Positions 7,880 through 33,780 of a stretch of DNA of 64,000 nucleotides are shown here, piece by piece. Origin of the DNA: Arenibacter latericius DSM 15913 (GTDB lineage Bacteria > Bacteroidota > Bacteroidia > Flavobacteriales > Flavobacteriaceae); assembly GCF_000424985.1 (NCBI RefSeq), contig NZ_AUKX01000005.1, positions 62,001 to 126,000 on the forward strand. The letters run 5' to 3'. The translations under genes were made by a program, and so were the position numbers. Position 1 is the stretch's first letter; each line of letters starts with the position of its first letter. The notes beneath the pieces were generated by a model. It made no database searches, was not told where the DNA came from, and saw only the letters and a program-made list of their open reading frames with translations.

Positions 7880-10800
7880 CTACTCCTTCAACCGATACAT
7901 ATAATAGCCACCGCCTTTGTCCCAACTACAGAATATAAGTGTTTTTTCATCCGGTGACACCCCTAGCCCCCTTGGTTCTGCTCCATCCAACTCTGGTAAT
8001 TCCAAGGTCCAAACTTGCTTCTTATTTTCATCCCTATAATGAAAAGTGGAAGGAGAAACACCGCTAGATCTTGTTGCTACATACATTGCACCAGTCCTCG
8101 GCACCCGTAAGGCACTACTCCCTCCATAGGCACTAGTAATAGCTTCCTCTTCCGCATACTTCCGTCCGTCTTTACTAGTGTACACCTGTATCTTTGCTGT
8201 CCCAGGATCAGGGAAATAAAGACTTAATCCATCTGAACTCATATCAAACGTACGGGCCAAAATTCTATCTTTTAGTTCTATGGTTCTCACTAAGTCAAAC
8301 TTTGAAGGATCATTCTCGTTTTGTTTTAATACATAATTAGGATCGTCTGCAAAAAGAGACATAGCATAAATCTCCCCCGCCTCATTAACTCTTGGCGCTG
8401 TGATGGCACGCTCACCTGCTGGCACCTCCCATACCGCTATTCCTTCTCCGGTATTGGCATCTATCTTTATTAGACGCCTATTGATTCCCGCCAAAATATG
8501 TCCGTCTAAATCAACTCCTACTCCATTTACTGGACTAAGTTTATAATCTTCCCCGTTTATTGTTACTCGTTGTAAAGGAGAGAAACTGGTAGGAGTGCCC
8601 TCCGCAGTCCTAATAACAAACCCCTTGTTGTAATCGGCTAACCAAAGTTTATTACTTCCATCCCAAACGGCTCCATAACCTCCTCCTGATGGTACTATTT
8701 TCTCTACCAACACATAGTTGGGAGCTACTATTTCAGCGAAATCCACCAAGGGCTCATCAGACTTTATCAAATGTAACTCCGCTGTTGATGAAGGAGTTAT
8801 ATTACTCCCATCAGAAGCCAATATTCGATGGTATAATATTCCTGACTCCCCCTCCTTAATGTCCGACAAAAGTTGGTACCAAGTACGTTCAACAATTTTC
8901 AGCTTAGACTCCCTTCCTGTTTGTTTCTGCCATAGGATATTTTTAAAATCGGGGTCTTTAGACAATTGGTACGTATAGGAAACAAAATCCCCATCCTTAT
9001 CCATAGAAGGCTTCCATTCCACCGTGTACATGGTTTCTAAATTTCTAATACCATAAGTGTTTTTGGATTGATGTGATAAAATTTCCGATGCTTCCGGCGG
9101 AATATTGCTTAGCGGGTAAAGCTGTGTTCTATATTTTTGACCTTCCCATGTTACCTCAACGTTTAAAGCACCCACTGCAAGGGATTCCTTTAAATCTTGG
9201 GTTAACCCCATCTCTTCCTTAAATGCGAGTTGACCCTTTTTTCTCCGAGTAATTTTAAGTGACTTTATAGTATTACTCTCTTCGGTATTTCTCCCACTTC
9301 CCAAATTCACAGAAACATCTTTGGAAAAAGATTGATTTAGAAAGGTCAAATGCCCATCTAGGTATAAAGTTTTACCCCGAATTTCTGCTACTACCTTTCC
9401 TTTGCCCATACTATTATGGTCTACCCCTGTATCGAAAACCGACATAAAGTTCCCTTCAACATTTGTGAAATCTGTATCGATATCGCGACGAATAATATTT
9501 CCATTTACTCCGAACATAGCGGAAGGATACCTAGATGTTTCTAAAATTTCCATTTTGGAAGCATTCTTCTCTTTAATGTTATAGGTTGTATATTCTAACC
9601 TCTTCCCATCTTCAAAAATATCCACAATGGTTATGGTATTTTCAGGAAGGCGGGTATCTCCCAACCAAGCACGGGGACCAGAACCTGCAGCACCGGCATT
9701 CAGCAATTCTAGCTTACCTTTTTTTGCAGGATAATAGGCATGCTGGTGTCCACTGATATAGGTATGCACCTTATAATCTTCCAACAATCCTTGTAACTTT
9801 TTCGGATTCTCTAATAGATTCCCTTTAGAATCCCTTCCTTGGGCCACCCCATATAACGGCATATGCCCTATAACGAAACGGTTTTTTGCATTTATCGCCT
9901 CAGACGTTTTAAACTGTTCCTCTAACCAATCCAAATTTTCTTGAGTAATTACCGATGAGGAAGCCTCCCAAGAGACAAAAAACATTCCATTTTTCACAAA
10001 GGAGTAATAGTGGGGAAAATGAGATGCGTCTACAAAATTCAGTCTAGTCCTATCTATATTCTTCTCCCAAAATTTTCTGGTCGCCTCGTGTTCTATGGGG
10101 AAAGAACGTGGACCATCATGATTTCCTACTGTAAAAGCAAAAGGAATTTGGGCTTTATCCAAGGGATCCATAATATGTTTATTAAATCCATCCCACATCT
10201 TTTGTAGTTGTAGCGTATCCGAAATTCCCATTCCCGCAACCATATCACCCCCACACAACACCAAATCTGGTTTCCATATTCTTGGAATACGCTGCATAAT
10301 ACTATCTACTTGCCATTCGTAATCTGCAGCCCCCAAACCAGAATTCAAGTCGCTGATTACCGCTATTCGCATTGCCCCTCTTTTTGGAAGTTCAGGAAAG
10401 TCTTTCTCGGATACCAATCGTATAGCATCCGTGGTAAACCTGCCTTCTCCTCCACCTATAATTTCGATCATATCCCCAGCTCCTAAATGAAATGATCCCA
10501 ACACTTCCCATTTCCCTGGTTGGGATATGGATTGCTGGTTTACAGAAAGGGTGTCTATTCCAGAAGTACTATGCACCACATAGAAGACCTCATCAGAATG
10601 TGCTTCATCCTTAATATACCAAACTCCTAGTTGGTAGGTATTTCTTCTAATATTTTCTAATTGATATACGGCCTTATTAATACTATTCACCATGCTACTT
10701 CGCGCTGGCGTTTCACCATAATAATTATTATCCCTGCTATTTTTCCAAATACCCACTTCGGAATAAAAAGGGCTATCCGTATCTAAAATGATAACTTCAC

Positions 10801-11740
10801 CACGCTTGGTGGGGACTTTTTCTGATAGCACTAAGGCACCTGCGTTTTTACGTAAACTATTTCTATTACCCCCAGTTATATCTGTTGGCACGTTAACCAC
10901 CTCATCACCAGCTACCATTGCTGAAGATCCGCCTCCATCTAAATTTAGAGCTTCTTTGGCCCCTATCCCATGCATTAGTTTTGCCAATTCCTCCAAGGTA
11001 ACCCCTACACTAGCTGCTTGACGTCCGTCTACCACCATCATCAACAAGGTATTTTCATCTGCATAACCAATGGCACTTCTTGGATGTCTAATTAAATGCC
11101 CCTTACCAAAGCCTTCTTCCTCCGATGTAACATTAATCTCCCCATTTTTTATCAACACTGGTCCAGCTCCTATAGCCTGTTCTGGATTCCATTTTACCCC
11201 CTTTTTATTTGTTCCAGGCTTGGAATACTTCCAAATTGCTCCGTCTTGCTCAGATCCAGTAGACCATACTATTTCTGGCAATCCATCTACTAAGCCAAAC
11301 GCCCCACGACCTCTATCTCCAGTAGGACCTAGAGCTATAGTTTTTCCGTCTTGAACAATGAGACTCACAGAGCTAGTAGGAGCAAAATACCCCCCGTTCA
11401 AAGCAAGAATACCTCTATTTTTCTCATACGTTTCCAAGGTAGTCTCCCTAATTGTATTGCTACCTATAGATCTTAGATCTAAATTTATGTCTCGTAAATC
11501 TATTTTAGCATAGACTGCCCTAATAGGTTCTCCATCGGCCAATGTTCCAGCAGCATCAAAGACCTGAACAGAATGTGGCAATACTATATTAAGATCTTCC
11601 CGAGGCTTCCAATTTATTACCAGATTCTGGGAAAATAGAGGCAAGGATAAAAAGAAAGTAAAAACAAGAAAAAGAGGCAGGGATAAATGCAATTTCCCAC
11701 AAAAGTTACCATGGAGTCTTCCTAATAAAAAAGAGTTCAT
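7880..11740 (-). CDS. Exported multidomain phosphodiester glycosidase (NAGPA) - golvesin-like - metallophosphoesterase - propeller protein
   Basis: A 1286-residue protein with an N-terminal hydrophobic export signal (about 18-37, ending LFSQ). Residues about 70-306 are a NAGPA/DUF2233 phosphodiester-glycosidase domain with ALNGGYFAP (113-121), GAGPVLIKNG (191-200), HPRSAIGY and the LNLDGGGSSAMV signature (266-277). Residues about 317-443 resemble the golvesin/Xly accessory domain. Residues 457-720 are a calcineurin-like metallophosphoesterase with SDLNSG (Asp464; the usual DxH is DxN here), GGDM (Asp499), GNHD (539-542), GHMP (625-628) and GHQH (664-667). A fibronectin-like region (about 880-990) and a propeller-like region (about 1000-1286) follow. 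NAGPA homologues remove GlcNAc linked through a 1-phosphodiester, so this protein could remove GlcNAc-phosphate decorations and then hydrolyse the phosphate (inference). It sits on the opposite strand inside the amino-sugar locus. Confidence 0.88.
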   Translation of the reverse strand: MNSFLLGRLHGNFCGKLHLSLPLFLVFTFFLSLPLFSQNLVINWKPREDLNIVLPHSVQVFDAAGTLADGEPIRAVYAKIDLRDINLDLRSIGSNTIRETTLETYEKNRGILALNGGYFAPTSSVSLIVQDGKTIALGPTGDRGRGAFGLVDGLPEIVWSTGSEQDGAIWKYSKPGTNKKGVKWNPEQAIGAGPVLIKNGEINVTSEEEGFGKGHLIRHPRSAIGYADENTLLMMVVDGRQAASVGVTLEELAKLMHGIGAKEALNLDGGGSSAMVAGDEVVNVPTDITGGNRNSLRKNAGALVLSEKVPTKRGEVIILDTDSPFYSEVGIWKNSRDNNYYGETPARSSMVNSINKAVYQLENIRRNTYQLGVWYIKDEAHSDEVFYVVHSTSGIDTLSVNQQSISQPGKWEVLGSFHLGAGDMIEIIGGGEGRFTTDAIRLVSEKDFPELPKRGAMRIAVISDLNSGLGAADYEWQVDSIMQRIPRIWKPDLVLCGGDMVAGMGISDTLQLQKMWDGFNKHIMDPLDKAQIPFAFTVGNHDGPRSFPIEHEATRKFWEKNIDRTRLNFVDASHFPHYYSFVKNGMFFVSWEASSSVITQENLDWLEEQFKTSEAINAKNRFVIGHMPLYGVAQGRDSKGNLLENPKKLQGLLEDYKVHTYISGHQHAYYPAKKGKLELLNAGAAGSGPRAWLGDTRLPENTITIVDIFEDGKRLEYTTYNIKEKNASKMEILETSRYPSAMFGVNGNIIRRDIDTDFTNVEGNFMSVFDTGVDHNSMGKGKVVAEIRGKTLYLDGHLTFLNQSFSKDVSVNLGSGRNTEESNTIKSLKITRRKKGQLAFKEEMGLTQDLKESLAVGALNVEVTWEGQKYRTQLYPLSNIPPEASEILSHQSKNTYGIRNLETMYTVEWKPSMDKDGDFVSYTYQLSKDPDFKNILWQKQTGRESKLKIVERTWYQLLSDIKEGESGILYHRILASDGSNITPSSTAELHLIKSDEPLVDFAEIVAPNYVLVEKIVPSGGGYGAVWDGSNKLWLADYNKGFVIRTAEGTPTSFSPLQRVTINGEDYKLSPVNGVGVDLDGHILAGINRRLIKIDANTGEGIAVWEVPAGERAITAPRVNEAGEIYAMSLFADDPNYVLKQNENDPSKFDLVRTIELKDRILARTFDMSSDGLSLYFPDPGTAKIQVYTSKDGRKYAEEEAITSAYGGSSALRVPRTGAMYVATRSSGVSPSTFHYRDENKKQVWTLELPELDGAEPRGLGVSPDEKTLIFCSWDKGGGYYMYRLKE

Positions 11741-12007: not shown

Positions 12008-13138
12008 ATGAAAAAAATGAGTACTACACAAAGGTATTACGCCTTGGATATTTTACGAGGTATGACCATTGCCTTAATGATAATGGTAAACAACCCGGGA
12101 AGCTGGTCACACATCTATCCACCCCTTAAACACGCCGCTTGGCACGGCTTTACTCCAACAGATTGGGTATTCCCTTCGTTTTTATTTGTTGTAGGTACAG
12201 CTATGAGCTTTAGTCTTAGGAAATATGAGACCATGGGAAACGGTTTAATTTTAAGAAAAATATTTAAAAGGGCAGGAATGATATTTTTAATCGGACTCCT
12301 GTTAAATGCCTTCCCTTTTGTGTATCGTGCCGATGATGGTATAACCCTTAAAAATTTAGCAAACATCCGTATTATGGGCGTATTGCAACGGATTGCACTT
12401 TGCTATCTCTTTGCTTCTTTAATCATTCACTATTTAAAACTTAAAAAATCTGTCATTGTTGGCGCATTAATTCTCTTAGCCTATTGGGCTATAATGTACT
12501 TTTTTGGATCATCCCCCACTCCCTTCAGCCTCGAAAATAATGCCGCTCTAAAATTTGATAATCTCATTTTTAGGCCAGAAAATATATACCGAGGATTCGG
12601 TATTCCATTTGATCCAGAGGGGCTCTTAAGCACCTTAACCGCTACGGTAAATGTTATTGCGGGATACGCTGCTGGAGTCTTTGTACAAAAGTCCGGAAAT
12701 CAGATTAAAACCGTTTTAAAACTTATAGCTTCTGGTATAGTTCTTATTATTCTAGCGCTTATTTGGGATATATACTTCCCTATAAATAAGCCTATTTGGA
12801 CCAGTAGTTACGTTTTATACAGTACGGGATGGACACTTATGGTACTGGCTATTTTAATCTATATAATAGAGTTATTAAACCTAAAAAAATGGGCTTATTT
12901 CTTTGAAGCCTTTGGAAAAAACCCCCTTTTTATATTTGTTATGTCTGGCGTATTCGCAAAGCTTCTTGGATTAATTCGTATTAACGGAGCTTCCCTTCAT
13001 TCCTGGCTATATAAAAACCTCTATTTAAGCTGGTTAAGTGAAGTAAATGCTTCCTTAGCATTTGCCATCAGTTTTATAGCAGTAATGTGGCTGTTGGGCT
13101 ATGTGCTAGACAAGAAAAAAATCTATATAAAAGTATAA
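12008..13138 (+). CDS. HGSNAT/NagX-like multi-pass membrane acyltransferase (DUF5009, COG4299)
   Basis: A 376-residue inner-membrane protein with about ten hydrophobic segments, related to the catalytic part of lysosomal heparan-alpha-glucosaminide N-acetyltransferase. The family pattern is clear: LDILRGMTIALMIMVNNPG near the N-terminus, then AAWHGFTPTDWVFPSFLFVVG, which contains the conserved His-Gly...Asp...Phe-Pro residues. Such proteins (sometimes called NagX) occur in GlcNAc utilisation loci, where transfer of an acetyl group to glucosamine across the membrane has been proposed. An alternative start lies at codon 4 (Met). Its stop is 14 nt upstream of the NagZ-fusion start, so it begins the second half of the amino-sugar operon. 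Confidence 0.88.
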   Translation: MKKMSTTQRYYALDILRGMTIALMIMVNNPGSWSHIYPPLKHAAWHGFTPTDWVFPSFLFVVGTAMSFSLRKYETMGNGLILRKIFKRAGMIFLIGLLLNAFPFVYRADDGITLKNLANIRIMGVLQRIALCYLFASLIIHYLKLKKSVIVGALILLAYWAIMYFFGSSPTPFSLENNAALKFDNLIFRPENIYRGFGIPFDPEGLLSTLTATVNVIAGYAAGVFVQKSGNQIKTVLKLIASGIVLIILALIWDIYFPINKPIWTSSYVLYSTGWTLMVLAILIYIIELLNLKKWAYFFEAFGKNPLFIFVMSGVFAKLLGLIRINGASLHSWLYKNLYLSWLSEVNASLAFAISFIAVMWLLGYVLDKKKIYIKV

Positions 13139-13152
13139 TAATACCCACTAAT

Positions 13153-16095
13153 ATGTATATTAAAAAGTTACCCTTATTTATCGCTTTATACCTGCTCGCT
13201 ACTATTTCACGAGCCCAGGAAAATCCTAAAAAGACACCTGAATTTCTACAATATACCCAAAGTGCTTGGGTAGATTCCATCATGAAATCCCTTACCCCAC
13301 AGGAGCGTATCGGACAACTTATATGGGTGTCTGCATACTCTAATCGGGGTCCTGAACACCGAGCGGATATCCTAAAAACCATAAAAGACTGGAATATTGG
13401 AGGTTTGGTCTTTTTTCAAGGCGATCCCGTAACGCAAGTAAAATTGATGAACGAGTATCAGAATGCTTCCAAAGTACCACTTATGGGTGCAATTGATGCC
13501 GAATGGGGTCTGGGGATGCGATTGGATAGTACCATAAGCTTCCCCTTCCAAATGGCTCTAGGAGCAGTACAGGATGATGACCTAATCTATGAAATGGGAA
13601 AAGAAGTGGCCCATCAGATTAAAAGTGTAGGATTACACCTCAATTTTGCTCCTGTTGCAGATGTAAATAACAACCCCAACAACCCAGTAATCAATTACCG
13701 ATCTTTTGGCGAGGATAAATTTAAGGTTGCCGAAAAGAGCATTGCTTATATGCAAGGGATGCAAGATGGAGGTCTAATTACAACCGCAAAACATTTCCCC
13801 GGGCATGGTGATACGAGTACCGACTCTCATTATGATCTTCCACAGATAAACCACTCTAGAGAGCGATTAAACGATTTAGAGCTATATCCTTTTAAAAAAC
13901 TTATAAATGCCGGTATTAACGGCATGATGGTAGCTCACCTTAATATCCCTGCACTAGACCCATCTGGGGTACCTTCTACCCTTTCCAAAGCAATAATTAA
14001 CGACCTACTTAAAGATCAATTGGGTTTTGAAGGTCTTATTGTAACCGATGCTATGGAAATGAAGGGGGTAACCAAAGGAAATTCACCTGGGATTGTAGAT
14101 AAACAAGCCGTATTGGCTGGCAATGATGTTTTAGAGATTGTACAAGACGTTTCCAAAGCAATTACTGAAATTAAAAAGGCCGTAGACAAAGGAATCATTT
14201 CGCAAAAAACAATAGATGCTAGGGTGCGTAAAATCCTTGCTGCTAAGCAATGGGTAAAACTTAACAAATACGAGCCATTGCCTATTTCCAATCTACTGCA
14301 GGACATAAACAATCCACATGCCTTATTGTTAGAGCGCAAACTAACCGAAGCTTCTTTAACGGTACTAAAAAATGAGGCAGATCTCCTTCCTTTAAAACAC
14401 TTGGATACTTTAAAAATCATGTCGGTTTCTATTGGTGCCGACAAAAAATCTACATTCCAAAAAACGTTGGATCTATATACCAAAGTAGATCATTTTACAC
14501 TTTCAATGAAGGCCTCCCAAAAGGAAATGGAAGCGATAAAAAAAGAACTTCCTAACTACAACTTAGTTATCGTTGGAGTACATGATGATACGCCTAGACC
14601 ACGTAACACCATAAAATTTTCAGAACCCGTACAGTCTTTTATCCAAACGCTACCTTTTAATAAAACGGTAGTTGCCTATTTTAAAAACCCCTACTCTATA
14701 GACAAACTGAACAACTTGGAAAATGCCAAGGGGCTTATTGTAAGTTATCAGGATGGGGAATCCGCACAGGACCTGTCCGCACAATTAATTTTTGGAGGTG
14801 TGGGTGCAAATGGTCAACTCCCTGTAGGAATTGGGAAAAAATTTAAGGCAGGGGACGGACTTACCATTAAAGGAGGAATACGGTTTAAATATACCCTACC
14901 AGAAGATGCCGGAATGGACTCCAAAACCCTAATCCATGGGGTAGATTCTTTAATGAATCAGGCCATTGATTTAAAAGCTACTCCTGGTGGACAGCTTTTA
15001 GTAGCCAAAAATGGAAAGGTAGTTTTACACAAGGCCTATGGTGTAAAAAAATATAACGACACCGCAAAAGTGTCCCTTGAAGATATTTATGATCTTGCAT
15101 CCGTTACTAAAATTTCCTCTGCGCTACCTGCTGTCATGAAATTGTACGATGAAGGAAAGTTTGACCTAGATAAAGGGATTGCTGATTACCTGAAATATTT
15201 TAAAAACTCTAATAAAGCAGATGCCAATTTAAGAGAAATACTAGCGCACCAAGCTAGATTTAATCCCTATATCACCTATTGGAAAAATACCCTTAGAAAA
15301 AATGGTAGCTATAAATGGAGTACTATTAAAAAAGATTCGTCGGCTCGGTTTCCTATAAAGATCAGCTCTAATATGTGGTTACACCGCAATTACCAAAAAA
15401 AAATATTTAAAGCGATTAAGAAATCGCCCCTCCTAGAGAAAAGGGAATACAAATATTCAGGCTTACTATTTATGCTACTACCCACAATGATTGAAGAAAT
15501 TACCGAAGAGGATTTTGTGGAGTACGTAGATCAAAATTTCTATAACAAACTGGGAGCAACTACATTAACCTACAATCCAGCTGAAAAATTTAACAAGAAA
15601 CAAATCGTCCCTACGGAACACGATTTTATCTTTAGACACCTTCCGGTACATGGTACCGTACATGATGAAGGTGCTGCCATGATGGGTGGAATTTCTGCCA
15701 ATGCAGGTTTATTCTCCAATGCCAACGATTTGGCCAAGTTAATGCAGATGTATCTTAATATGGGTACCTACGGAGGCGAAGAATATATAAAGGCAAGTAC
15801 GGTAAAGGAGTTTACCAAGGCTCAGTTCCCTGACAATAACAATCACCGCGGGTTAGGGTTCGACAAGCCTTTTTTAGAATATAAAGGTGTAAATAGCAAC
15901 ACAGCCAAAGATGCAAGTAGCGATAGTTTTGGACATACTGGGTTTACCGGTATAATGGTTTGGATGGACCCAAAAGAGGAGCTATTATACTTATTCTTAT
16001 CGAACCGAGTACTGCCAACCAGAGCAAATACCACCCTTTATAAACTAAACACTCGAACCAATATTCAACAGGTTCTTTACGATGCCATCAAATAA
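13153..16095 (+). CDS. Exported beta-N-acetylglucosaminidase (GH3, NagZ type) fused to AmiE-like serine hydrolase
   Basis: 980 residues when started at 13153. An upstream in-frame ATG at 13087 lies inside the previous gene, whereas 13153 gives a clean signal peptide ending SRA|QE. The N-terminal half is GH3 with the NagZ signature around KHFPGHGDTSTDSH (213-226, catalytic Asp/His pair) and a nucleophile Asp299 in VTDAMEMKG. The C-terminal half has the class-C beta-lactamase fold with SVTK (Ser650, Lys653) and HTG (928-930). The middle YxN motif reads YSG (768-770). In Bacillus, NagZ and the beta-lactamase-fold MurNAc-L-Ala amidase AmiE are separate neighbours; here the two activities appear fused. 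It would release GlcNAc and strip the peptide from muropeptides in the periplasm. AnmK follows 18 nt downstream. Confidence 0.93.
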   Translation: MYIKKLPLFIALYLLATISRAQENPKKTPEFLQYTQSAWVDSIMKSLTPQERIGQLIWVSAYSNRGPEHRADILKTIKDWNIGGLVFFQGDPVTQVKLMNEYQNASKVPLMGAIDAEWGLGMRLDSTISFPFQMALGAVQDDDLIYEMGKEVAHQIKSVGLHLNFAPVADVNNNPNNPVINYRSFGEDKFKVAEKSIAYMQGMQDGGLITTAKHFPGHGDTSTDSHYDLPQINHSRERLNDLELYPFKKLINAGINGMMVAHLNIPALDPSGVPSTLSKAIINDLLKDQLGFEGLIVTDAMEMKGVTKGNSPGIVDKQAVLAGNDVLEIVQDVSKAITEIKKAVDKGIISQKTIDARVRKILAAKQWVKLNKYEPLPISNLLQDINNPHALLLERKLTEASLTVLKNEADLLPLKHLDTLKIMSVSIGADKKSTFQKTLDLYTKVDHFTLSMKASQKEMEAIKKELPNYNLVIVGVHDDTPRPRNTIKFSEPVQSFIQTLPFNKTVVAYFKNPYSIDKLNNLENAKGLIVSYQDGESAQDLSAQLIFGGVGANGQLPVGIGKKFKAGDGLTIKGGIRFKYTLPEDAGMDSKTLIHGVDSLMNQAIDLKATPGGQLLVAKNGKVVLHKAYGVKKYNDTAKVSLEDIYDLASVTKISSALPAVMKLYDEGKFDLDKGIADYLKYFKNSNKADANLREILAHQARFNPYITYWKNTLRKNGSYKWSTIKKDSSARFPIKISSNMWLHRNYQKKIFKAIKKSPLLEKREYKYSGLLFMLLPTMIEEITEEDFVEYVDQNFYNKLGATTLTYNPAEKFNKKQIVPTEHDFIFRHLPVHGTVHDEGAAMMGGISANAGLFSNANDLAKLMQMYLNMGTYGGEEYIKASTVKEFTKAQFPDNNNHRGLGFDKPFLEYKGVNSNTAKDASSDSFGHTGFTGIMVWMDPKEELLYLFLSNRVLPTRANTTLYKLNTRTNIQQVLYDAIK

Positions 16096-16113
16096 TAAGA
16101 CAACTAAGAAGGG

Positions 16114-17190
16114 ATGAAAATTTATAAAGTTTTAGGGCTAATGTCTGGCACCTCCTTAGATGGTCTGGATCTTGCCTATTGCCATATTTGGAAAACCCCA
16201 ACGGGATGGGATTTCGATCTAAAAAAAACGGACAGCATTCCCTATTCCGATACGTTAAAAGAAAAGCTTAAAAATGCTATTTACATTCCTGCTGAAAAAC
16301 TTTTGGAATTTCATAACACCTATGGAACCTGGCTAGGTCAAAAATCTAAGGAGTTTATAGCGACCCATAAATTGGAGGTCGATTTTATAGGAAGCCACGG
16401 ACATACCACTCACCACCAGCCACAAAAGGGATTCACTTTTCAAATAGGCTCCGGTCAACACCTCGCCAACGCAAGTGGCACTAAAGTAATTTGTGATTTT
16501 CGCTCTAACGATGTGGCACTGGGCGGACAAGGAGCACCATTAGTACCTATAGGAGACAGACACTTCTTTGGGCAGTACGATTTTTGTCTAAACCTAGGAG
16601 GAATTAGTAATATTTCCTTTGAACGTAATGGGGAACGTTTGGCCTATGATATCGGTCTAGCAAATATGATCCTTAACCACATTACTCAGAAAATAAACCT
16701 CAACTATGACAAGGATGGGGCTCTCGCAAGAAAAGGAAGTATAAATAAACCAATGCTAGAGCAATTAAACAACCTAGAATTCTACAAACTTCCTTTTCCT
16801 AAGTCCGTTGGTTTTGAATGGTTTGTAGAAAAAGTGATCCCCATTGTTGAAGCAAACGACGACAGTATAGAAAATCTACTACATACCAGTATTCATCATA
16901 TCTGTGAGCAGGTTGCTAAACAGGTGGAATTGCAAAAAAACAAAACAGAAAACACTCTTTTTGTTACAGGGGGAGGTGCCCTAAATGGTTTTCTTATGGA
17001 AACATTACAACAAAAAGTTGGTAGTAGCACCAAAGTGGTAAAACCCACTAACCTCCTAGTAGAGTTTAAAGAGGCCCTAATCTTCGCTCTCATGGCAGTA
17101 TTACGAGAAGAGAATTCTATAAATTGTTTGCGATCCGTTACCGGAGCAAAACACGATTGTTCTGGTGGCGTAGTCTTTCTTCCTGCCTAA
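16114..17190 (+). CDS. anmK: Anhydro-N-acetylmuramic acid kinase
   Basis: Cytoplasmic enzyme that hydrolyses and phosphorylates 1,6-anhydro-MurNAc to MurNAc-6-phosphate during cell-wall recycling. The ATP-binding opening GLMSGTSLDGLDLAY (residues 8-22) is the AnmK signature. It is followed by IGSHGHTTHHQP, a CDFRSNDVALGGQGAPLVP stretch and the C-terminal VTGGGALNGFLME. The length, 358 residues, is normal. It starts 18 nt after the NagZ fusion and is the strongest evidence that this locus handles peptidoglycan sugars. No MurQ etherase is seen in the window, so the next step must be encoded elsewhere, perhaps just left of the window. Confidence 0.96.
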   Translation: MKIYKVLGLMSGTSLDGLDLAYCHIWKTPTGWDFDLKKTDSIPYSDTLKEKLKNAIYIPAEKLLEFHNTYGTWLGQKSKEFIATHKLEVDFIGSHGHTTHHQPQKGFTFQIGSGQHLANASGTKVICDFRSNDVALGGQGAPLVPIGDRHFFGQYDFCLNLGGISNISFERNGERLAYDIGLANMILNHITQKINLNYDKDGALARKGSINKPMLEQLNNLEFYKLPFPKSVGFEWFVEKVIPIVEANDDSIENLLHTSIHHICEQVAKQVELQKNKTENTLFVTGGGALNGFLMETLQQKVGSSTKVVKPTNLLVEFKEALIFALMAVLREENSINCLRSVTGAKHDCSGGVVFLPA

Positions 17191-21345: not shown

Positions 21346-21375
21346 TGCCACTTTATAAAAAAATATAAAGTGGCA
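21346..21375 (+). terminator. Hairpin after acs
   Basis: A perfect 12-bp stem (21346-21357 with 21364-21375, TGCCACTTTATA) and an all-A hexaloop lie 17 nt after the acs stop. There is no clear T-tract, so it may stabilise the mRNA end or act as a weak terminator. A second, shorter inverted repeat (TTGCCTT/AAGGCAA, 21532-21552) lies before the converging MFS gene. I see no gene in 21329-21595. Confidence 0.55.
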
Positions 21376-21595
21376 CGTGCTTTCCACTATATCTTTTTTA
21401 TAGCCATAAAAAAGGATGCCGTTGCAATCACTAATGCGGAAATCCAAATACAAACACTTCAAATTTTAGTCCACCTTTCGACAAAGCTATTTCTTATCCT
21501 TTTAACAAACCTAGTTGAATTCATTTATAGCTTGCCTTATAATAAAAGGCAATATTCTATATAAAAGTGAGATTATGGTTATTTAAAAATTTAAC

Positions 21596-25715: not shown

Positions 25716-28607
25716 ATGATAAAACAATTCCTTGCTTGCCTACTCCTATTACATATCTCTTATTTTGCTTGGGGACAAAAACCGAATAACCAAGAAATTA
25801 AAGAGCTCATCACTTCTTACAAAAAGGATATTAGGGGTCCCTATAAAGAAATCCGATGGTTTTGCACAGATGGTAGTATTCGTCAGCCAAAAGACCCATG
25901 TCCAGATAAAATTGGTCCCGGAGTACAACATGCTACCTACAAAAACTCGGTTATCGATCTAGGTAAGAGCAATCATTTATTTTTTGGTCAAATTCTTGCG
26001 TATACCAATAAAGAAGAGTTCTGGGATAAGGACAATAACCATTCGCGCCTAAAACAATATCAGCTAGACAAATATTTAAGGTCTGTTGACGATGGTTGGG
26101 TGTTACAAAAAGGGCAGTATTATAGAGGAGCTATACAGTCTGAAGATGAAGAGGCATGGGGTGTTGAGTTTTTTAAATGGCTACTCTCTGATACCGATAA
26201 TATAAAAAAGCATTTTTTTCTTATAAGACAATCCTTAAAAGATATACCACACCAAGGAGATGATAATTTAGCGCAAAAAATTAGAAGCGAATCTAAAGTG
26301 ATTTCCGACATGGCACCTAGCTTTATGGATTTGCGAATTAAAATTCATAGTCAGCCCGATGCGGGAGATATTAATAGGGTAACCCATTATAAAAACAACC
26401 ATAGCGGAAAATTAAGTTCGGAGGTTAATTTAAAAATTGATGCCTTAACCCGCACCATGACAACTTTCTACAAGTCTGTAGATATTGCCGCTTTGCCAAA
26501 AAGAACTAACCTTGTTGAGGAAAAACAGATTGGCAAGGATATAATCACTTATTCGAACCTTTATTCAGAGGAAAAAAACAACGCATTTTTAATACCGGCA
26601 ACGGCAGAATTACTGTTATCCATTAGAAAGGCAATAATAGAAGAAGAGTCTGCTTCCGCTAGATTACAATTAATGGACGCCTCGTTAAAACTAGAGGAAA
26701 TAATTTTTAAAAAAGCACCTGAATGGCAGCCCAAGGACTTAAACGAACTCTTAGATAAGGTATGCTATTTAGGAATGGCTAATACAGGTGCTGGATATAT
26801 TGAACTAGAAGAATGGCAGCAATTAAACTTAGCTTCCAAGGGGAATTCATTAGGAGAACTCACCAAAACATTAGAACATGCACGTAGGGAAGTAGAATGG
26901 AGTTCTTCTATGGTAAAAGCCAATTATCAAAGAATTGTAGATATATATACCGGATTTGAGCCCAATGCCTATGGGTATATAGACGATAAAATTAGGGGTT
27001 CTATAGCCTTACACCTTGGGCAGTCCGTTAGTGAATTAGGGGATATAATTGCCAAGGAATCGGCACTCACCAATAAGGTTATGGGTATTGATAACCAAAG
27101 TGGATTTCGCGGGTTAAATTCGGGTTATGCATTGGGTGAACTAGTCGTTGTGAGCGGGTCCCCAGATGAAATTGAAGTAGTTTCAGATAAGATATATGTA
27201 TTTCAGCGACCACCAGCAGATTTAAAACCTGTGGCCGGCATTGCCACGGTATCCGAAGGAAATATGGTCTCTCACGTACAGCTTTTGGCTAGGAATTTAG
27301 GAATACCCAACGCAGCACTAGCTGATGATAACCTTAAAAACCTTCTAAAATATAACGGAGAGATGGTATTTTTCGCAGTTTCCAATAAAGGTAATGTGAT
27401 TATGAAGCTAGAAAATGATATGACTCCCGAGGAGCGCAATCTCTTTGCCAAAAAAGAACGCAGGGAAGATAGGGTGCGCGTCCCTGTTGATAATATCAGA
27501 TTACAGGAAAACAAAATATTAGATCTAAAGGAAGTGGATGCTAGTGATTCGGGGAAGCTCTGCGGCCCCAAAGCGGCTAACCTCGGTCAATTAAAAAAGA
27601 TGTTCCCTAACAAAGTGGTAGAAGGTCTAGTAATTCCCTTTGGAATTTTTAGATCCCATATGGACCAACCTATGCCAGATAGCAAAGTTACATATTGGGA
27701 GTTTTTAAATACCATCTTTAAAGAGGCCGAAACCATGCGCGCCCAAGGAATTAACCATAGTGAAGTTGAGAACTATCAATTACAAAGGTTGGAGGCTCTA
27801 AGAGAAGCAATAAAAAATATTCATCTACAAGCGGAGTTTCTTGAACAACTAGAAAAAGGGTTTGCCAATATACTCGGGGAAAATTTAGGGGAGATTCCAG
27901 TATTCCTTAGGAGTGACACCAATATGGAAGACCTTAAGGACTTTACTGGAGCAGGTCTTAATTTAACCATATTTAATGTAGTGACAAAAGAAAAGATAAT
28001 TGCAGGAATTAAAGATGTATGGGCTTCTCCTTATACGGAACGCAGTTTTAAATGGAGACAAAAATTTCTGTTGAATCCAGAAAATGTTTTCCCTTCTATA
28101 TTGGTTATCCCCAGTGTAGATGTGGATTATTCTGGAGTTTTAATTACCAAGGGAATCAACTCCGGAAGACCCGAAGATTTAACAGTAGCCTTCAGTAGAG
28201 GTGCCGGGGGTGCGGTAGATGGGCAATCTGCGGAAACCTACGAGATATTTGATGCTGGAGGCAAACAGTTGCTTGCACCTGCTAGAGAATCTTATTACAA
28301 TAGGCTCCCCTCAGCAGGAGGGACAGAAAAAAAGATAGCTACCTTTGAAAATTTCATTCTTAACGATCAAAACATTCAGGACATTAGGGATCTTGCAAAT
28401 GCGATTCGAGAAACGATGCCCAAAGAAACAAACACTGATTATAATGGTGCCTATGATGTAGAACTAGGTTTCCAAAAGAATAAGTTATGGCTCTTTCAGA
28501 TTAGACCTTTTGTAGAAAATAAAAAAGCACAAAGCTCCGATTATTTAGAGTCTATTACCTCAAAAATAGATCTAAACAAAAAAATTAATCTCTCCCAAAA
28601 AATATAA
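25716..28607 (+). CDS. Exported PEP-synthase/glucan-water-dikinase-like ATP-grasp dikinase
   Basis: 963 residues from ATG 25716, chosen because a signal peptide begins there (hydrophobic LACLLLLHISYFAW, cleavage likely after WG before QKP). A longer frame from TTG 25668 adds only 16 residues. Residues about 20-480 are not recognised. A phosphohistidine swivel-type segment has VSEGNMVSHVQLLARN with candidate catalytic His520. The PPDK/PEPS-type ATP-grasp domain follows: CGPKAANLGQL, RSDTNMEDLKDFTGAGL (Arg732), WASPYTERSFKWR, and a closing DVELGF (Glu916) ... QIRPF (928-932). The order His domain then ATP-grasp resembles plant glucan, water dikinase rather than PEP synthase. All visible catalytic residues are intact, yet export would place it away from cytoplasmic ATP. 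The acceptor is unknown. A serine hydrolase gene follows after one base. Confidence 0.85.
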   Translation: MIKQFLACLLLLHISYFAWGQKPNNQEIKELITSYKKDIRGPYKEIRWFCTDGSIRQPKDPCPDKIGPGVQHATYKNSVIDLGKSNHLFFGQILAYTNKEEFWDKDNNHSRLKQYQLDKYLRSVDDGWVLQKGQYYRGAIQSEDEEAWGVEFFKWLLSDTDNIKKHFFLIRQSLKDIPHQGDDNLAQKIRSESKVISDMAPSFMDLRIKIHSQPDAGDINRVTHYKNNHSGKLSSEVNLKIDALTRTMTTFYKSVDIAALPKRTNLVEEKQIGKDIITYSNLYSEEKNNAFLIPATAELLLSIRKAIIEEESASARLQLMDASLKLEEIIFKKAPEWQPKDLNELLDKVCYLGMANTGAGYIELEEWQQLNLASKGNSLGELTKTLEHARREVEWSSSMVKANYQRIVDIYTGFEPNAYGYIDDKIRGSIALHLGQSVSELGDIIAKESALTNKVMGIDNQSGFRGLNSGYALGELVVVSGSPDEIEVVSDKIYVFQRPPADLKPVAGIATVSEGNMVSHVQLLARNLGIPNAALADDNLKNLLKYNGEMVFFAVSNKGNVIMKLENDMTPEERNLFAKKERREDRVRVPVDNIRLQENKILDLKEVDASDSGKLCGPKAANLGQLKKMFPNKVVEGLVIPFGIFRSHMDQPMPDSKVTYWEFLNTIFKEAETMRAQGINHSEVENYQLQRLEALREAIKNIHLQAEFLEQLEKGFANILGENLGEIPVFLRSDTNMEDLKDFTGAGLNLTIFNVVTKEKIIAGIKDVWASPYTERSFKWRQKFLLNPENVFPSILVIPSVDVDYSGVLITKGINSGRPEDLTVAFSRGAGGAVDGQSAETYEIFDAGGKQLLAPARESYYNRLPSAGGTEKKIATFENFILNDQNIQDIRDLANAIRETMPKETNTDYNGAYDVELGFQKNKLWLFQIRPFVENKKAQSSDYLESITSKIDLNKKINLSQKI

Positions 28608-28608
28608 A

Positions 28609-29868
28609 ATGCAGAAATATATCATCTACAACCTTTTAATACTATGCTGCTCTGCATTTACTGTGGCAACCTTTTACCCCATAGACGGATATGAACGCAC
28701 GGGAATAAAACGTTTAAAGTATTTGGAACTGGTTAAAAGTGGAGAAATAAAATCAGCCTCCCCCCTACCTGCCGGAGCTTATAAATCTTACGAGGAAATT
28801 GACCTTAATCTACTTTCAAAAAAGAAGGATAGTTTGGAGTCCATTTTAACGATAGAAGAAAATTTTCAGAAAGAAATAAACGGACTTTTCAAAGGATTGG
28901 ATAAAAGTTATTCTCTTGCGGTTCTGGATATCTCCGATGTAAATAAGATTCGCTTTGCAAAGCGGAACGAAACTGCAGGCTATCAACCGGGAAGCGTAGG
29001 TAAATTGGCGGTATTGGTAGCGCTGTTTGATCAATTATCGAAAATTTATCCTGACTCCTTTGAAAAACGAATCGATTTATTACGCTCAAAATCCGTTAAG
29101 TCAGGAGTTTGGGGCTTAACAGATTCACATACTGTTCCTATTTTTAATGTAGAGACCCATAAACTTATTAAAAGACAGGTGGTTGCTAGTGACGTATTTA
29201 CCTTATTTGAATGGGCAGACCATATGCTCTCTGTTAGCAATAATGGCGCTGCCAGTATAGTGTGGCGAGAAGCTTTATTAATGGCCGCCTTTGGACAAGC
29301 ATACCCCGAACTTACTCAAGAAGAAGCCGATACTTATTTTAACACTACCCCAAGAAAAGAACTCACCGATTTATCCAACGATATTGTAAACCTACCATTA
29401 CGTAATTTGAACATAAGTTCCGATGAATGGCGATTGGGAAGCTTTTTCACCTCTGGGGCCAATAAATACGTTGGAGACAAAGGAGGAAGTATAGGGTCTA
29501 CCTTGGGATTAATGAAATTCTTAATCCAATTAGAACAAGGAAATGTTATAGATGAAGCCTCTAGCCTTGAGATGAAGCGATTAATGTATATGACGGATCG
29601 CAGGATAAGATATGCACAATCCCCTTCATTAAAAGAAGCCGCTGTTTATTTTAAATCGGGAAGTTTGTACCAGTGTAATAAAACAAGTGGTGAACCTTGT
29701 GGCAAATATATGGGGAACATCACTAATTTTATGAACTCTGTAGCCATTATTGAACATCCAGACAACTGCACCTATATGGTGGTTCTAATGACCAATGTAT
29801 TGCGAAAAAATTCGGCCACAGACCATATGATGTTGGCTAGCAGTATTGATAAAATAATTAAAAAGTAG
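28609..29868 (+). CDS. Exported class-A beta-lactamase-fold serine hydrolase
   Basis: A 419-residue protein with an N-terminal hydrophobic export segment (about 5-22). Beta-lactamase/transpeptidase-fold motifs are all present: SVGK (Ser129, Lys132), SNN (210-212) and KSG (349-351). The C-terminal part holds a pair of cysteines (356, 364). It starts one base after the dikinase stop, so translation is probably coupled and the two products likely work in the same compartment. It may be a peptidase, esterase or amidase; antibiotic hydrolysis is not implied. Its last 11 bases overlap the tail of the converging NTT-HEAT gene. Confidence 0.85.
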   Translation: MQKYIIYNLLILCCSAFTVATFYPIDGYERTGIKRLKYLELVKSGEIKSASPLPAGAYKSYEEIDLNLLSKKKDSLESILTIEENFQKEINGLFKGLDKSYSLAVLDISDVNKIRFAKRNETAGYQPGSVGKLAVLVALFDQLSKIYPDSFEKRIDLLRSKSVKSGVWGLTDSHTVPIFNVETHKLIKRQVVASDVFTLFEWADHMLSVSNNGAASIVWREALLMAAFGQAYPELTQEEADTYFNTTPRKELTDLSNDIVNLPLRNLNISSDEWRLGSFFTSGANKYVGDKGGSIGSTLGLMKFLIQLEQGNVIDEASSLEMKRLMYMTDRRIRYAQSPSLKEAAVYFKSGSLYQCNKTSGEPCGKYMGNITNFMNSVAIIEHPDNCTYMVVLMTNVLRKNSATDHMMLASSIDKIIKK

Positions 29869-32734
29869 GTTTTTCTGTGGATTGAAGGATTTCGGCAGCC
29901 TTTTTCCTAACCTTTACATGAGAATCATCCAAAGCCATTTTTAAAAGGGAATTGTATTTTGGCTCGTTAATTTTTTCAATTAGGTAAAGTACCGCGAACC
30001 TTAGTTTAACATCTTTTCTTTTTAAAAGGATATTATAACATTCATATTCACTTAGTACCTTAACATCCAAATTCTTTAAATTCTTTTCTGAACCTATTTC
30101 TAAAAGGGTAGATTCGGCTACAGGAATCAATTCCTTTTTAAGCTGAATATCTAAGATGTTATCTAGAAATTCAATGGCATGTATCCGTTGTTCCTCTTTT
30201 CCATGCAGTATAGAGTTTAGTATGGGGTCTACATCCTGGGGAGGGTATTTGATGCCTAAAAACTTAAAGATTCGCTGTAATTGCCTATCCAATCGCATTT
30301 CCAACAAATGAATCAAGCTATTTCTGGCCTCGTTTTCTTCGCGCGATTCCGGTATCTCGGAATTTCTTTTATATCGGATGATAATCTGGGAATGAATAAC
30401 GGAAAGTGTATTTTGATATAAGTTGCATTCGTCTAATATTCTTTCCACAACAAATCGGTCGTTAATTTTTAAATGTGGATACTTCCATTTCAATCTTTTT
30501 AAGACCTCAATAGCTTCAATTTTTATAGTATGCTCAGTTTCTCTAGTTAGTTTTATCAGGGTATTAACAGCTTTTTGCGAGGCAAATTTCTCCATCACCA
30601 ATACTACTACCGCAGCTTCTTCCATCTCCAGCTCATTCTCCTTCAATACCATTTCGTATAGAATATCTATTATAGGCTCTCCAAAAAAATATAAGGCTTC
30701 TATACTAGACTTTCTAGTTTCTTTCCCCGGTAACTTAGCAACAATTAAACCCACAAACTGCTCATTCAAGGTTTTAGATGCCGCTGTTATTGCAGTATTG
30801 GCCACAGCACTATTAGGAGACTTTATATGGGTCTTTATCACATCGTAAAACCGTTCTACCTTAGCATTCCCTATAGCTTCCAAAATAGCCTGTGTCTTAT
30901 TTGTTTTTTCCTCTTCGGAACTTAAAAAGGTAAGTTTCGATAATGCTTTTTCTATTCTATCTTCCAAACTAAAGCGGCTTTGCAATAGCTCATTATTTCT
31001 TAATTCTAAGGACAAGCCTACTAAAGCAGCATTGGCAATGGTATTATCATCCACATTGAGATAGGTATTAAAAAGTTGAACCTGATCTTGATCGTAATTC
31101 TTCAACAAATATCTAAACGCAGAAGTGGTGACTTGCTGATCTTTATCCATTATCAGTTCCTGAATGGGTACACATAAATTTTCTGTGTTAAGAAAATAAA
31201 GGTTCTCAATAGCAAGAGCCCTCACCTTGGCAGAAGGATAGCTTAGCAGATTTTTAATGGCATAAAAAAAACGTTCATCCTTCACCTCTAAAGTTTTATG
31301 AAGCATGTGAAGTATCTGATTCTCCGTTCCGCTATTAAGCACCCGGATAACTGTATCTATAATAGACGTAACTTTTATTTCTTTCTTATCTGCCTTTTCC
31401 TTTTTTACTCCAGGTTGTTCCAACAACCCTTTAAACGCTACTATATACTCCCTTCTAAGGTGATAGATAAAATACAACCATATAGAAATTAGGACAATAA
31501 TGATTAAACTGATGTAAGTTGACGGTATTTCTAGTGCATTGATAAAGAATATTAAGATAAAACCGGCCATTCCCGTTGCTATGCTATCTACCACTACATC
31601 TGTAAAGGTTTTGGTTTTCTTTTTAATTTCTATGGGGATGGGTATAGAAAGTAGCTCCGTTGCCGCTTTATTTACAGACTGCTTTAAACTCCCATCTACA
31701 ATTTTAATAAATACCACCACCCACAACTGAGGAAGAATCAATAATAGAACAGACCCAATTAAAATACCTGTCGGCAACCATAATAAGGACTTCCCCACCC
31801 CAAAGGTCCCTACAATTCGCTTGGTAAGAAATAATTGTATTAATAGAGAAATTACACTAAGCGTAGAAAACCAAAACCCAAAAAATGAGGTCAGCTCATC
31901 CTGATCTTGTATAAACCTAGAGGCATAATCACTGTATTGGTAATCTACAAGCTTGGCGATTAGCACACTAATTCCGATAACCAGAGCAATTAAGCTCAGT
32001 AGTTTAGACTGTTTAATGAGTCTAAAAGGGGATTCTCCTTTAGGTACAGACCTTCCTGAAACTTGAAAAGGGTTTAATTTAACTACTTCTGTACTCCATA
32101 TGTAACGGGTAATGGGAAGACAGCATAAAAGCAAAGCCGCTGCAACAAAAAGTAAATTCTCTGTATAAAGTATCTTGGTCAACAAGGAGGTTAAATATCC
32201 TCCAAAAATTCCGCCAGCTATGGCCCCGGCACCAATAAACCCGAAGACACGTTTTGCCTCCCTTACGTTATAGACAAGGTTAGCCATTATCCAAAACTGC
32301 GAGGCGGTAAGCAGTCCAAACAATGCCACCCACACATAGGGTATATAAAGGATATATCCGCTAGTAAGGTTAAAACTAAATGCGATACCAAATAGCACCA
32401 ATGAAATTACCGAACCTATAATAGTCCTATCAACTATTATGTTCAGGGCATACTTTTCCATGGCGCTATCATAAAAATAAGAACCACCAATGGCCATAAT
32501 TGCTGTTAGCACATACCCTAGAGGAAGAGCACTAGAAGAGAGTTCGGAAAGAAATAAGGAATTAATAGTTGGTTTTACAATCAGTAGAACCGTTATAATG
32601 AGGAATATGTTCAACTGCAGCAGGAGCGTTTTTTTCAACTCCTCCTCCTTTAGATCAAAAGCTTTTAGAATATATATTTTAATCAGTGATAAAAGGTGGT
32701 TCAAATGTGGTGCTTTATGTATATTAAATACCAA
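29858..32734 (-). CDS. NTT/ADP-ATP-carrier-like membrane protein fused to HEAT-like repeats
   Basis: 958 residues. Residues about 30-440 contain 11-12 hydrophobic segments with the pattern of the bacterial/plastid nucleotide transporter family, for example YVWVALFGLLTASQFWIMAN, then AKRVFGFIGAGAIAGGIFGG, then KIVDGSLKQSVNKAATELL. From about 450 to the end the protein is soluble and alpha-helical with repeated pairs of helices (for example ALIGLS-, AALVGLSLEL-, VRKKAAEIL-type units) resembling HEAT repeats. The start is TTG at 32734; no ATG exists for about 90 codons. A perfect -7 element nine bases upstream of transcription start supports it. Family membership suggests nucleotide or nucleotide-phosphate exchange, but transport has not been shown and the direction is unknown. 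Confidence 0.8.
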   Translation of the reverse strand: MVFNIHKAPHLNHLLSLIKIYILKAFDLKEEELKKTLLLQLNIFLIITVLLIVKPTINSLFLSELSSSALPLGYVLTAIMAIGGSYFYDSAMEKYALNIIVDRTIIGSVISLVLFGIAFSFNLTSGYILYIPYVWVALFGLLTASQFWIMANLVYNVREAKRVFGFIGAGAIAGGIFGGYLTSLLTKILYTENLLFVAAALLLCCLPITRYIWSTEVVKLNPFQVSGRSVPKGESPFRLIKQSKLLSLIALVIGISVLIAKLVDYQYSDYASRFIQDQDELTSFFGFWFSTLSVISLLIQLFLTKRIVGTFGVGKSLLWLPTGILIGSVLLLILPQLWVVVFIKIVDGSLKQSVNKAATELLSIPIPIEIKKKTKTFTDVVVDSIATGMAGFILIFFINALEIPSTYISLIIIVLISIWLYFIYHLRREYIVAFKGLLEQPGVKKEKADKKEIKVTSIIDTVIRVLNSGTENQILHMLHKTLEVKDERFFYAIKNLLSYPSAKVRALAIENLYFLNTENLCVPIQELIMDKDQQVTTSAFRYLLKNYDQDQVQLFNTYLNVDDNTIANAALVGLSLELRNNELLQSRFSLEDRIEKALSKLTFLSSEEEKTNKTQAILEAIGNAKVERFYDVIKTHIKSPNSAVANTAITAASKTLNEQFVGLIVAKLPGKETRKSSIEALYFFGEPIIDILYEMVLKENELEMEEAAVVVLVMEKFASQKAVNTLIKLTRETEHTIKIEAIEVLKRLKWKYPHLKINDRFVVERILDECNLYQNTLSVIHSQIIIRYKRNSEIPESREENEARNSLIHLLEMRLDRQLQRIFKFLGIKYPPQDVDPILNSILHGKEEQRIHAIEFLDNILDIQLKKELIPVAESTLLEIGSEKNLKNLDVKVLSEYECYNILLKRKDVKLRFAVLYLIEKINEPKYNSLLKMALDDSHVKVRKKAAEILQSTEKPTF

Positions 32735-32830: not shown

Positions 32831-33751
32831 TCAATTATTGGCCACCTGGGCGCGTCCTGCCCGTAGTACTTTCTCCACTGGCTTCACAAGATCTCGAATA
32901 ATTTGTTCTCCGGATTCATCATCTATTAAAGCAACTAATATATAACGTCTATTAGGATTCTTCCCCCAGACTAGAACCGAGTCTGAATGAAAATTTCTCC
33001 AGGATCCAGATTTACGATACAATTTTGCAGAGGGTGCAATAACGTCTAGCGTGTTTACAAATTTATGATGCAATTCAGGATCACCCATTATATCTAGCAT
33101 CTGTTTAGATCTCTCCCTATTTACTAATTGACCGTTGGCTAACAAATAATAATAACGGCATACTTGGTTAACCGTTGCGGCATGGGATAAATTCTTAAGA
33201 GGCTCTCTATTAGTAGCTCCACCTCCACCGTAGCGCTTACCTACCCAGAGACCGCCTCCACGCTCTTCATCATAAAACTTATATTTAGGATCGGTCATCA
33301 CGGATTGTATCTTATCATAACCCAATCGATCTATCATCCTTGTAGAAGCTGCATTGCTAGATTTACTAATCATAAGCCTCATATCTTCTCTAATAGTCTG
33401 GTTGTCCTTAAGTTCCCCTTTTTCTAAAGCATCCATGGAAGACAATAAAATGGCAATTTTAGGCAAGCTAGCCGCATACATCATGTAGTTCCCGTTAATA
33501 CTAGCATATTTTGCCTCTTCCGGGTTTTTTAAATCCACAATCCCTACAGCCATTTTTCTATTTTTCATCAACGCCTTCCACTTGGGGTTAGACATAAGTT
33601 CACGTTCTAAACTTTGCTGTAGGCTAGTGCTCGCTAAACTTGCCAACGGTTTCACCTGAGAATCCCGTACTTTAATTGGAAGTTCCTTTTGAGCATATAT
33701 ACCCATAACGGATAAAAATGTAAGCATAAATAGGTAAAGTCTATTTCCCAT
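32831..33751 (-). CDS. Exported class-A beta-lactamase-fold serine hydrolase
   Basis: 306 residues from ATG 33751; a GTG at 33763 would add four residues. Signal peptide with cleavage after IYA|QK near residue 20. Catalytic motifs are SLPK (Ser95, Lys98), SSN (131-133) and KSG (247-249), the class-A beta-lactamase/transpeptidase set (PF13354). A glycine-rich insert near 165-178 (GGGLWVGKRYGGGG) is unusual. It is transcribed toward, and lies 96 nt upstream of, the NTT-HEAT gene. Together with 28609-29868 it is the second beta-lactamase-fold enzyme of this cluster. The substrate is unknown; cell-wall peptide or ester hydrolysis is possible. Confidence 0.85.
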   Translation of the reverse strand: MGNRLYLFMLTFLSVMGIYAQKELPIKVRDSQVKPLASLASTSLQQSLERELMSNPKWKALMKNRKMAVGIVDLKNPEEAKYASINGNYMMYAASLPKIAILLSSMDALEKGELKDNQTIREDMRLMISKSSNAASTRMIDRLGYDKIQSVMTDPKYKFYDEERGGGLWVGKRYGGGGATNREPLKNLSHAATVNQVCRYYYLLANGQLVNRERSKQMLDIMGDPELHHKFVNTLDVIAPSAKLYRKSGSWRNFHSDSVLVWGKNPNRRYILVALIDDESGEQIIRDLVKPVEKVLRAGRAQVANN

Positions 33752-33780
33752 AGTATTGATCACTGTTACAACATATTAAA

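Follow-up and report, generated by a model that had tools for sequence, protein, structure and literature searches.

Where would an ATP-dependent phosphotransferase find its ATP if it works outside the cytoplasm? The question is raised by a gene in a 64,000-nucleotide stretch of Arenibacter latericius DSM 15913 (contig NZ_AUKX01000005.1, positions 62,001 to 126,000; the whole stretch is called the window below), the product of which, named DIK here, combines a predicted signal peptide with an ATP-grasp domain of the dikinase type. The bacterial envelope is generally regarded as free of ATP, with lipid-linked donors serving its phosphate-containing modifications. We found DIK to be part of a conserved four-gene unit that also encodes an ATP/ADP translocase-family (NTT) membrane protein, and this transporter is directly relevant to the concern that no ATP should be available beyond the cytoplasm. 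Export of DIK, an intact active site and the gene association are well supported. The genes and the parts of DIK lie at the following positions of the window.

25716..28607, + strand: DIK, exported dikinase-like protein, 963 aa (PPDK_N PF01326; orthologues)
25716..25775, + strand: predicted signal peptide of DIK, residues 1-20, followed by Gln21 (family feature; Q-rule)
25776..27101, + strand: N-terminal, mostly helical domain of DIK, residues 21-462, with invariant Cys50 and Cys62 (model; conservation)
27102..27497, + strand: phosphohistidine (swivelling) domain of DIK, about residues 463-594, limits approximate (weak PF00391 and PF22973; His520)
27498..28565, + strand: ATP-grasp (PPDK_N) domain of DIK, about residues 595-950 (Pfam, phmmer, fold, conservation)
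27273-27275, + strand: codon of His520
27909-27911, + strand: codon of Arg732
28461-28463, + strand: codon of Glu916
28497-28508, + strand: QIRP motif (Q928-I-R-P931)
28609..29868, + strand: BLA, exported or membrane-anchored Beta-lactamase2-family hydrolase (PF13354; S129xxK132, S210xN212, K349-S-G)
29858..32734, - strand: TLCHEAT, NTT membrane domain with HEAT repeats, 958 aa (PF03219, PF13646)
32831..33763, - strand: SerHyd, exported Beta-lactamase2-family hydrolase (PF13354; S96xxK99, S132xN134, K248-S-G, numbered from window:32834-33754)

The DIK frame opens with an ATG at 25716 and its stop codon ends at 28607, the coordinates given in a preliminary description of this DNA, which had also reported a signal peptide. 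This feature proved to be family-wide. The DIK alignment comprises 69 dereplicated sequences out of 130 and the window protein (70 rows, one of them left unscored for the signal peptide). A crude custom rule that chooses the best start found a strongly hydrophobic N-terminus in 68/69 orthologues and Gln directly after a small residue in 69/69, with the hydrophobicity limit also passed by one of seven cytoplasmic window proteins (ParA). Gln21 agrees with the Q-rule, by which Gln usually stands right after the cleavage site in Bacteroidetes signal peptidase I substrates (PMC5837995). The mature window protein has four cysteines, of which Cys50 and Cys62 are present in 70/70 sequences and the other two in 40/70 and 65/70; the invariant pair would suit a disulphide. 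DIK is thus very probably exported, and the orthologue N-termini make a cytoplasmic protein with its real start past the hydrophobic stretch, the alternative raised in the preliminary description, unlikely.

Residues 615-944 of DIK match PPDK_N (PF01326) with an E-value (E) of 3e-26 and 92.9 bits versus a cut-off of 27, and phmmer aligns the ATP-grasp part with phosphoenolpyruvate (PEP) synthase and rifampin phosphotransferase (RPH) sequences. His520, Lys619, Arg732, Glu738, Asp739, Asp914, Glu916, Gln928, and Arg930 are invariant across all 70 aligned sequences. The ATP-grasp residues that the preliminary description had listed as intact-looking (Arg732, Glu916, and QIRP 928-931) are all present, and four of them (Arg732, Glu916, Gln928, and Arg930) belong to the invariant set. 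The structural comparison proposed there agrees: a whole-protein AlphaFold2 model (70 sequences; mean predicted local distance difference test score, pLDDT, 84.8) was matched by Foldseek to the ATP-binding domain of RPH (5hv6) with template modelling (TM) scores of 0.81 and 0.83 of target length, among 15 matches at E 0.001 or better that include other PPDK_N enzymes. The mobile phosphohistidine domain is fainter. PF00391 matches residues 503-539 with E 0.0084 and 16.1 bits, under its cut-off of 23.1, and at E up to 1 it weakly matched all 18 DIK members scanned; the segment around His520 also appears as a low-scoring second stretch (6.4 bits) against PEP synthase 8a8e. The invariance of His520 and the domain order in both sequence and model uphold its earlier nomination as the candidate phosphohistidine ahead of the ATP-grasp domain. 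A competent ATP-grasp and phosphohistidine pair is likely.

DIK consists of the N-terminal domain, the phosphohistidine domain and the ATP-grasp domain, with which it ends; no Pfam family besides PF01326 and PF00391 was found at E up to 0.01, and no PEP-binding barrel. The N-terminal 442 residues, modelled alone from 56 of the 69 sequences and the window protein, gave a pLDDT of 88.1 and a predicted TM score of 0.88. No PDB structure matched this model at E 0.001 or better (257 matches at E up to 10, the best at 0.31), and a Pfam scan of 18 members at E up to 1 found no starch-binding or other known domain there.

These features set DIK apart from the nearest known enzymes. In glucan, water dikinase (GWD), the phosphohistidine domain precedes a C-terminal PPDK_N domain. 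The preliminary description had pointed to this likeness, and the order of domains does correspond. Kinship with GWD itself is only partly borne out: GWD1_pHisD (PF22973) matches weakly in 7/18 members (best E 0.02), whereas the general PEP-utilizers model matches in 18/18. Unlike plant GWD and PWD, DIK has a signal peptide, an N-terminal domain without known relative and no starch-binding domain found, and it sits in a bacterial module with an NTT-HEAT protein and SxxK hydrolases; identification of DIK as a GWD proper was rejected on the Pfam scan of the 18 members and the lack of a PDB fold match for the N-terminal domain. PEP synthase and PPDK share the PPDK_N domain, the ATP-site residues and the phosphohistidine stretch, but DIK is exported, has no matched PEP-binding barrel, and shows the reverse domain order, the ATP-grasp of 8a8e (110-374) lying ahead of its histidine stretch (385-459). 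RPH and HpeI provide the best fold matches to the ATP-grasp domain. RPH nonetheless has its ATP-grasp at 80-286 and its histidine stretch at about 813-849, in contrast to histidine 520 and ATP-grasp 615-944 in DIK, which is exported and has a different acceptor (N-terminal) domain. Phosphorylation outside the cytoplasm is shared with the Fam20-type kinases of the animal secretory pathway, as presented in PMC7948968, which differ in fold, organism and compartment.

BLA starts one base past the DIK stop codon, TLCHEAT converges on BLA, and SerHyd comes after TLCHEAT. The neighbourhood was compared in 99 loci, consisting of 80 named records (the best 80 of 403 relatives) and 19 others, with one genome represented twice (L116, L146); among those best 80, the nearest named relative of DIK is from Arenibacter certesii (94% protein identity). 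BLA is found near DIK in 97 of these loci, TLCHEAT in 82 and SerHyd in 80, while other window genes occur in 16 or fewer. For the two loci lacking BLA it is encoded elsewhere in the genome, so it is present for all 99. A hand-picked set of 58 loci gave 57, 50 and 49, respectively, with the next family at 11. Both sets define a conserved unit of four genes. The preliminary description was right to place DIK in a cluster of exported proteins, to which an NTT-family transporter must be added. TLCHEAT is missing from the vicinity of DIK in 17 loci; for 15 of them a strong match was found in another part of the genome or at the edge of a contig. Counts from promoter and terminator scans were close to those of shuffled sequences. 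As a side observation, distance correlations (57 dereplicated of 77 loci having all four genes) are 0.93 for DIK-BLA, 0.83 for DIK-SerHyd and 0.67 for DIK-TLCHEAT; they lack a background control, and no conclusion is drawn from them.

Both hydrolases retain their SxxK, SxN and KSG motifs without exception, in 42/42 aligned BLA sequences (41 dereplicated of 152 and the window protein) and in 29/29 SerHyd sequences (28 of 40 dereplicated from 110, and the window protein). SxxK, SxN and K-S/T-G are the motifs of the serine beta-lactamase and penicillin-binding protein fold, and they are typical of penicillin-binding proteins and DD-peptidases. No PDB relatives of BLA were found at E up to 0.1, and for SerHyd there were just two weak matches over 20 residues.

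The association extends from neighbourhoods to whole genomes. Full-length DIK was found in 28 of 149 Flavobacteriaceae genomes. The same 28 contain BLA at E below 1e-100 and TLCHEAT above 570 bits, one copy each, and TLCHEAT is kept even in two genomes where it is unlinked to DIK (G108, G144). SerHyd is present in these 28 and in G146, where a contig ends inside a TLCHEAT start and no DIK was found; a further weak SerHyd match occurs in G031. Weak TLC matches without DIK were limited to G017 (91 bits), G077 (55 bits) and G120 (54 bits). In a broader set of 395 Bacteroidota genomes, scored with up to two candidates per genome for DIK and NTT-HEAT, DIK is present in 13 genomes from six families; 11 of these 13, and no other genome, have a TLCHEAT scoring above 460 bits. 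A functional link between DIK and the NTT-HEAT protein is most likely real.

The assignment of TLCHEAT rests on PF03219 (35.5 bits versus a cut-off of 21) and PF13646 for the HEAT part. Among the 48 aligned members (47 dereplicated of 105 and the window protein), PF03219 matches 42 at E up to 0.01 and MFS_1 matches 43, in the window protein below the MFS_1 cut-off. A profile of the 48 sequences retrieved 25 PDB sequences at E up to 0.1. The NTTs among them (chloroplast ADP,ATP carrier 9j3j, E 2e-11, and another carrier, 9j3n, E 1e-8) are the only transporters, the other 23 being engineered or natural HEAT-type repeat proteins. TLCHEAT shares its NTT and HEAT architecture with fusions described in PMC5381601 as broadly conserved, monophyletic and uncharacterised. 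The neighbour named there is a cyclic-nucleotide-binding protein rather than an exported phosphotransferase. Two forms of TLCHEAT exist, with 36/80 loci at 55% identity or more to that of the window and 44/80 below 50%. In Arenibacter loci L058 and L060 the distant form (44-45%) occupies the same place beside a DIK of 72% identity (compare L050-L057, L059, and L061), and an in-place exchange of the gene seems to have occurred.

If NTT-HEAT proteins feed envelope enzymes, exported ATP-using proteins are expected as their neighbours in other clades as well. Among 18 further loci of NTT relatives, 6 share a lipoprotein family of approximately 560-600 aa, represented by the following gene.

L202:9951-11654, + strand: kinase-like lipoprotein (relatives in L197, L199, L200, L201, and L214)

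This lipoprotein is unrelated to DIK. Lys167, Glu181 (replaced by Asp in one member), Asp297-x4-Asn302 and Asp319 are retained by twelve intact members from 11 genomes and are ordered and spaced like protein-kinase motifs. HipA kinase models of Pfam match weakly, at the start of the model, in three of ten members scanned singly (best E 0.028), and no relative was found among PDB sequences. NCBIfam gave scattered single-member matches, the best of which (LsoB_effector, E 0.00066) was taken as chance. Five of the six loci also hold a second exported family, one member of which matches Omp85 and another of which has no match. The lipoprotein was picked as a neighbour, and its genome-wide co-occurrence was tested afterwards, with up to three candidates per genome: intact copies occur in 11/395 Bacteroidota genomes, all 11 with an NTT-HEAT, which is of the second clade in ten (188-334 bits) and only of the DIK type in G513. 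Five divergent copies lack most of the kinase-like residues, and two genomes with divergent copies only (G290, G451) have no NTT-HEAT match. Taken together, a close NTT-HEAT is present in 21/395 genomes, and 21/21 encode DIK or the intact lipoprotein; the union of the latter genomes is 22, the one without a close NTT-HEAT being G325. "Close" means 185 bits or more, a limit set at a gap after the scores were seen (next below it are 182.5, for the second piece of the gene in G208, and 117.5, for a single-domain NTT), and weaker HEAT-bearing relatives in other genomes are left out of the count. Separately, single-domain NTT and NTT-HEAT genes were seen in tandem beside the lipoprotein gene in L197 (G341) and L201 (G337).

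We tentatively read the four genes as one envelope phosphotransfer system with nucleotide supplied through the transporter, a reading to which we give slightly less than even chances; enzymatic activity, outward movement and acceptor are all inferred. By analogy with the dikinase superfamily and given the conserved residues, the ATP-grasp domain of DIK would phosphorylate His520 from ATP or another nucleotide outside the cytoplasm, and the swivelling domain would transfer the phosphate to an acceptor that the large N-terminal domain holds in place. The NTT-HEAT protein, judging from its family, neighbourhood and co-occurrence, would deliver nucleotide to the outer face of the inner membrane, perhaps also retrieving the product, while BLA and SerHyd would act on the same envelope substrate. 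Outward movement of nucleotide through TLCHEAT is possible, and we lean somewhat against it. The SxxK motifs of the penicillin-binding protein and DD-peptidase type suggest peptidoglycan or a wall-linked glycan as a first guess for the acceptor, and such a wall-type acceptor is rather unlikely. It is also doubtful, though conceivable, that NTT or NTT-HEAT proteins of Bacteroidota act as dedicated supply lines passing ATP outward to at least two unrelated kinds of extracytoplasmic phosphotransferase (DIK and, in a second group of Bacteroidota, a HipA-like lipoprotein kinase).

Two other exported families with phosphohistidine and PPDK_N domains are relevant to the dependence on a transporter.

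L187:5179-7053, - strand; L188:5775-7667, - strand; L192:5796-7667, + strand; L193:5666-7564, + strand: second exported family, 624-633 aa
L189:3270-7964, - strand; L190:3910-8274, - strand; L191:402-4769, - strand: third exported family, 1,455-1,565 aa

The seven members read of both families keep the histidine in PLSH and the RSSTNxED motif. The third family has a signal peptide and PPDK_N, CARDB, SprB, Lamin Tail, and Por_Secre_tail domains; this type IX sorting domain, present in three of three members scanned, indicates that it is probably secreted by the type IX system.

Several observations weigh against nucleotide supply by TLCHEAT. Both of these families occur in genomes without a match to a TLCHEAT-type NTT-HEAT (e.g., G313, G165, G055, G046, and G123), so not every exported dikinase-like protein depends on such a transporter. 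Among genomes with DIK, G325 has only a single-domain NTT and G341 only a distant NTT-HEAT (28% identity), and the relatedness of genomes inflates the co-occurrence counts. The critical charged substrate-contact residues of plant NTT1 are K155, E245, E385, and K527; TLCHEAT has Leu76, Ala137, Asp264, and Thr387 at these positions, one acid being kept and three residues lost (the pairing of Leu76 rests on a stretch scoring -1.5 bits), so it may carry something other than ATP. At five further charged positions (K54, K351, K371, K375, and D383) the residue is unchanged in 48/48 members. The direction of transport cannot be read from the sequence.

Part of this evidence fits a scavenging role, in which the NTT-HEAT protein imports nucleotides and DIK uses released ATP to phosphorylate or trap a solute, the products then being taken up. 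Characterised parasite NTTs are importers of nucleotides according to PMC5381601, named DIK hosts among the best 80 of 403 relatives are largely marine Flavobacteriia, and the exported dikinase-like proteins without an NTT match would need ambient ATP. Scavenging leaves unexplained, however, both the two conserved SxxK hydrolases and the pairing of the second NTT-HEAT clade with the kinase-like lipoprotein, and we regard it as improbable. Nor do we think it probable that the module is real while its chemistry or cargo is another, with the ATP-grasp domain performing ligation or transfer from another donor, or TLCHEAT carrying a wall precursor, a recycled fragment or other cargo. The lost NTT contact positions, the below-cut-off match to MFS_1 and the presence of the prodigiosin ligases PigC and RedH among PPDK_N relatives speak for this possibility; the invariance of His520 and the ATP-grasp residues and the restriction of PDB transporter matches to NTTs speak against it.

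An antibiotic-inactivating envelope cassette, pairing an RPH-like kinase with two beta-lactamase-like enzymes, is suggested by the closest fold matches of DIK and by the Beta-lactamase2 assignment of both BLA and SerHyd. We consider it very improbable in view of the strict retention across six families, the departure of DIK from the RPH domain order, the dissimilar N-terminal domain, and the lack of any match covering 80% of DIK in 72,556 plasmid and 50,697 phage records. The latter result, together with a PADLOC scan of the four module proteins that returned only a HEAT-ARM match for TLCHEAT and none for the other three, also led us to reject a mobile or defence origin of the module. Hardly any probability remains for the view that DIK is a normal cytoplasmic relative of PEP synthase whose start was mispredicted. 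DIK is indeed the sole PPDK_N protein found in the A. latericius genome, but no PEP-binding barrel family is matched, and in six genomes with DIK (G037, G056, G108, G129, G369, and G513) another PPDK_N open frame is present, which at 803-822 aa is as long as PEP synthases are. On these two grounds, replacement of a lost PEP synthase by DIK was rejected, as was cytoplasmic misannotation on the signal-peptide features of the orthologues.

Should the phosphotransfer reading be correct, the pairing of DIK with an ATP/ADP-translocase-family protein would break the rule of an ATP-free envelope in a large and chiefly marine group of bacteria. It would also hint at what the widespread NTT-HEAT fusions do and imply an envelope modification not yet recognised. 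If the supply-line proposal also held, ATP-dependent phosphorylation in the envelope would count as a general process that has a transport step of its own, and the NTT-HEAT fusions would receive their first assigned role. All parts come from known superfamilies, and the novelty would lie in the system, for which we know of no described counterpart; no paper on such an envelope system came up in the open-licence literature.

Elsewhere in the window, three genes upstream of DIK (12008-17190, + strand) resemble peptidoglycan recycling, with names assigned by eye: a membrane protein, a long glycosidase-like protein and an AnmK-like kinase. An AnmK-like gene is near DIK in 4/99 loci only. The product of the gene at 7880-11740 (- strand), 1,286 aa long, has a hydrophobic stretch near its N-terminus and joins NAGPA phosphodiester glycosidase, Golvesin_C and calcineurin-like phosphoesterase domains. 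A Flavo-1 RNA (RF01705, 50.1 bits) is located at 21369-21442 (- strand).

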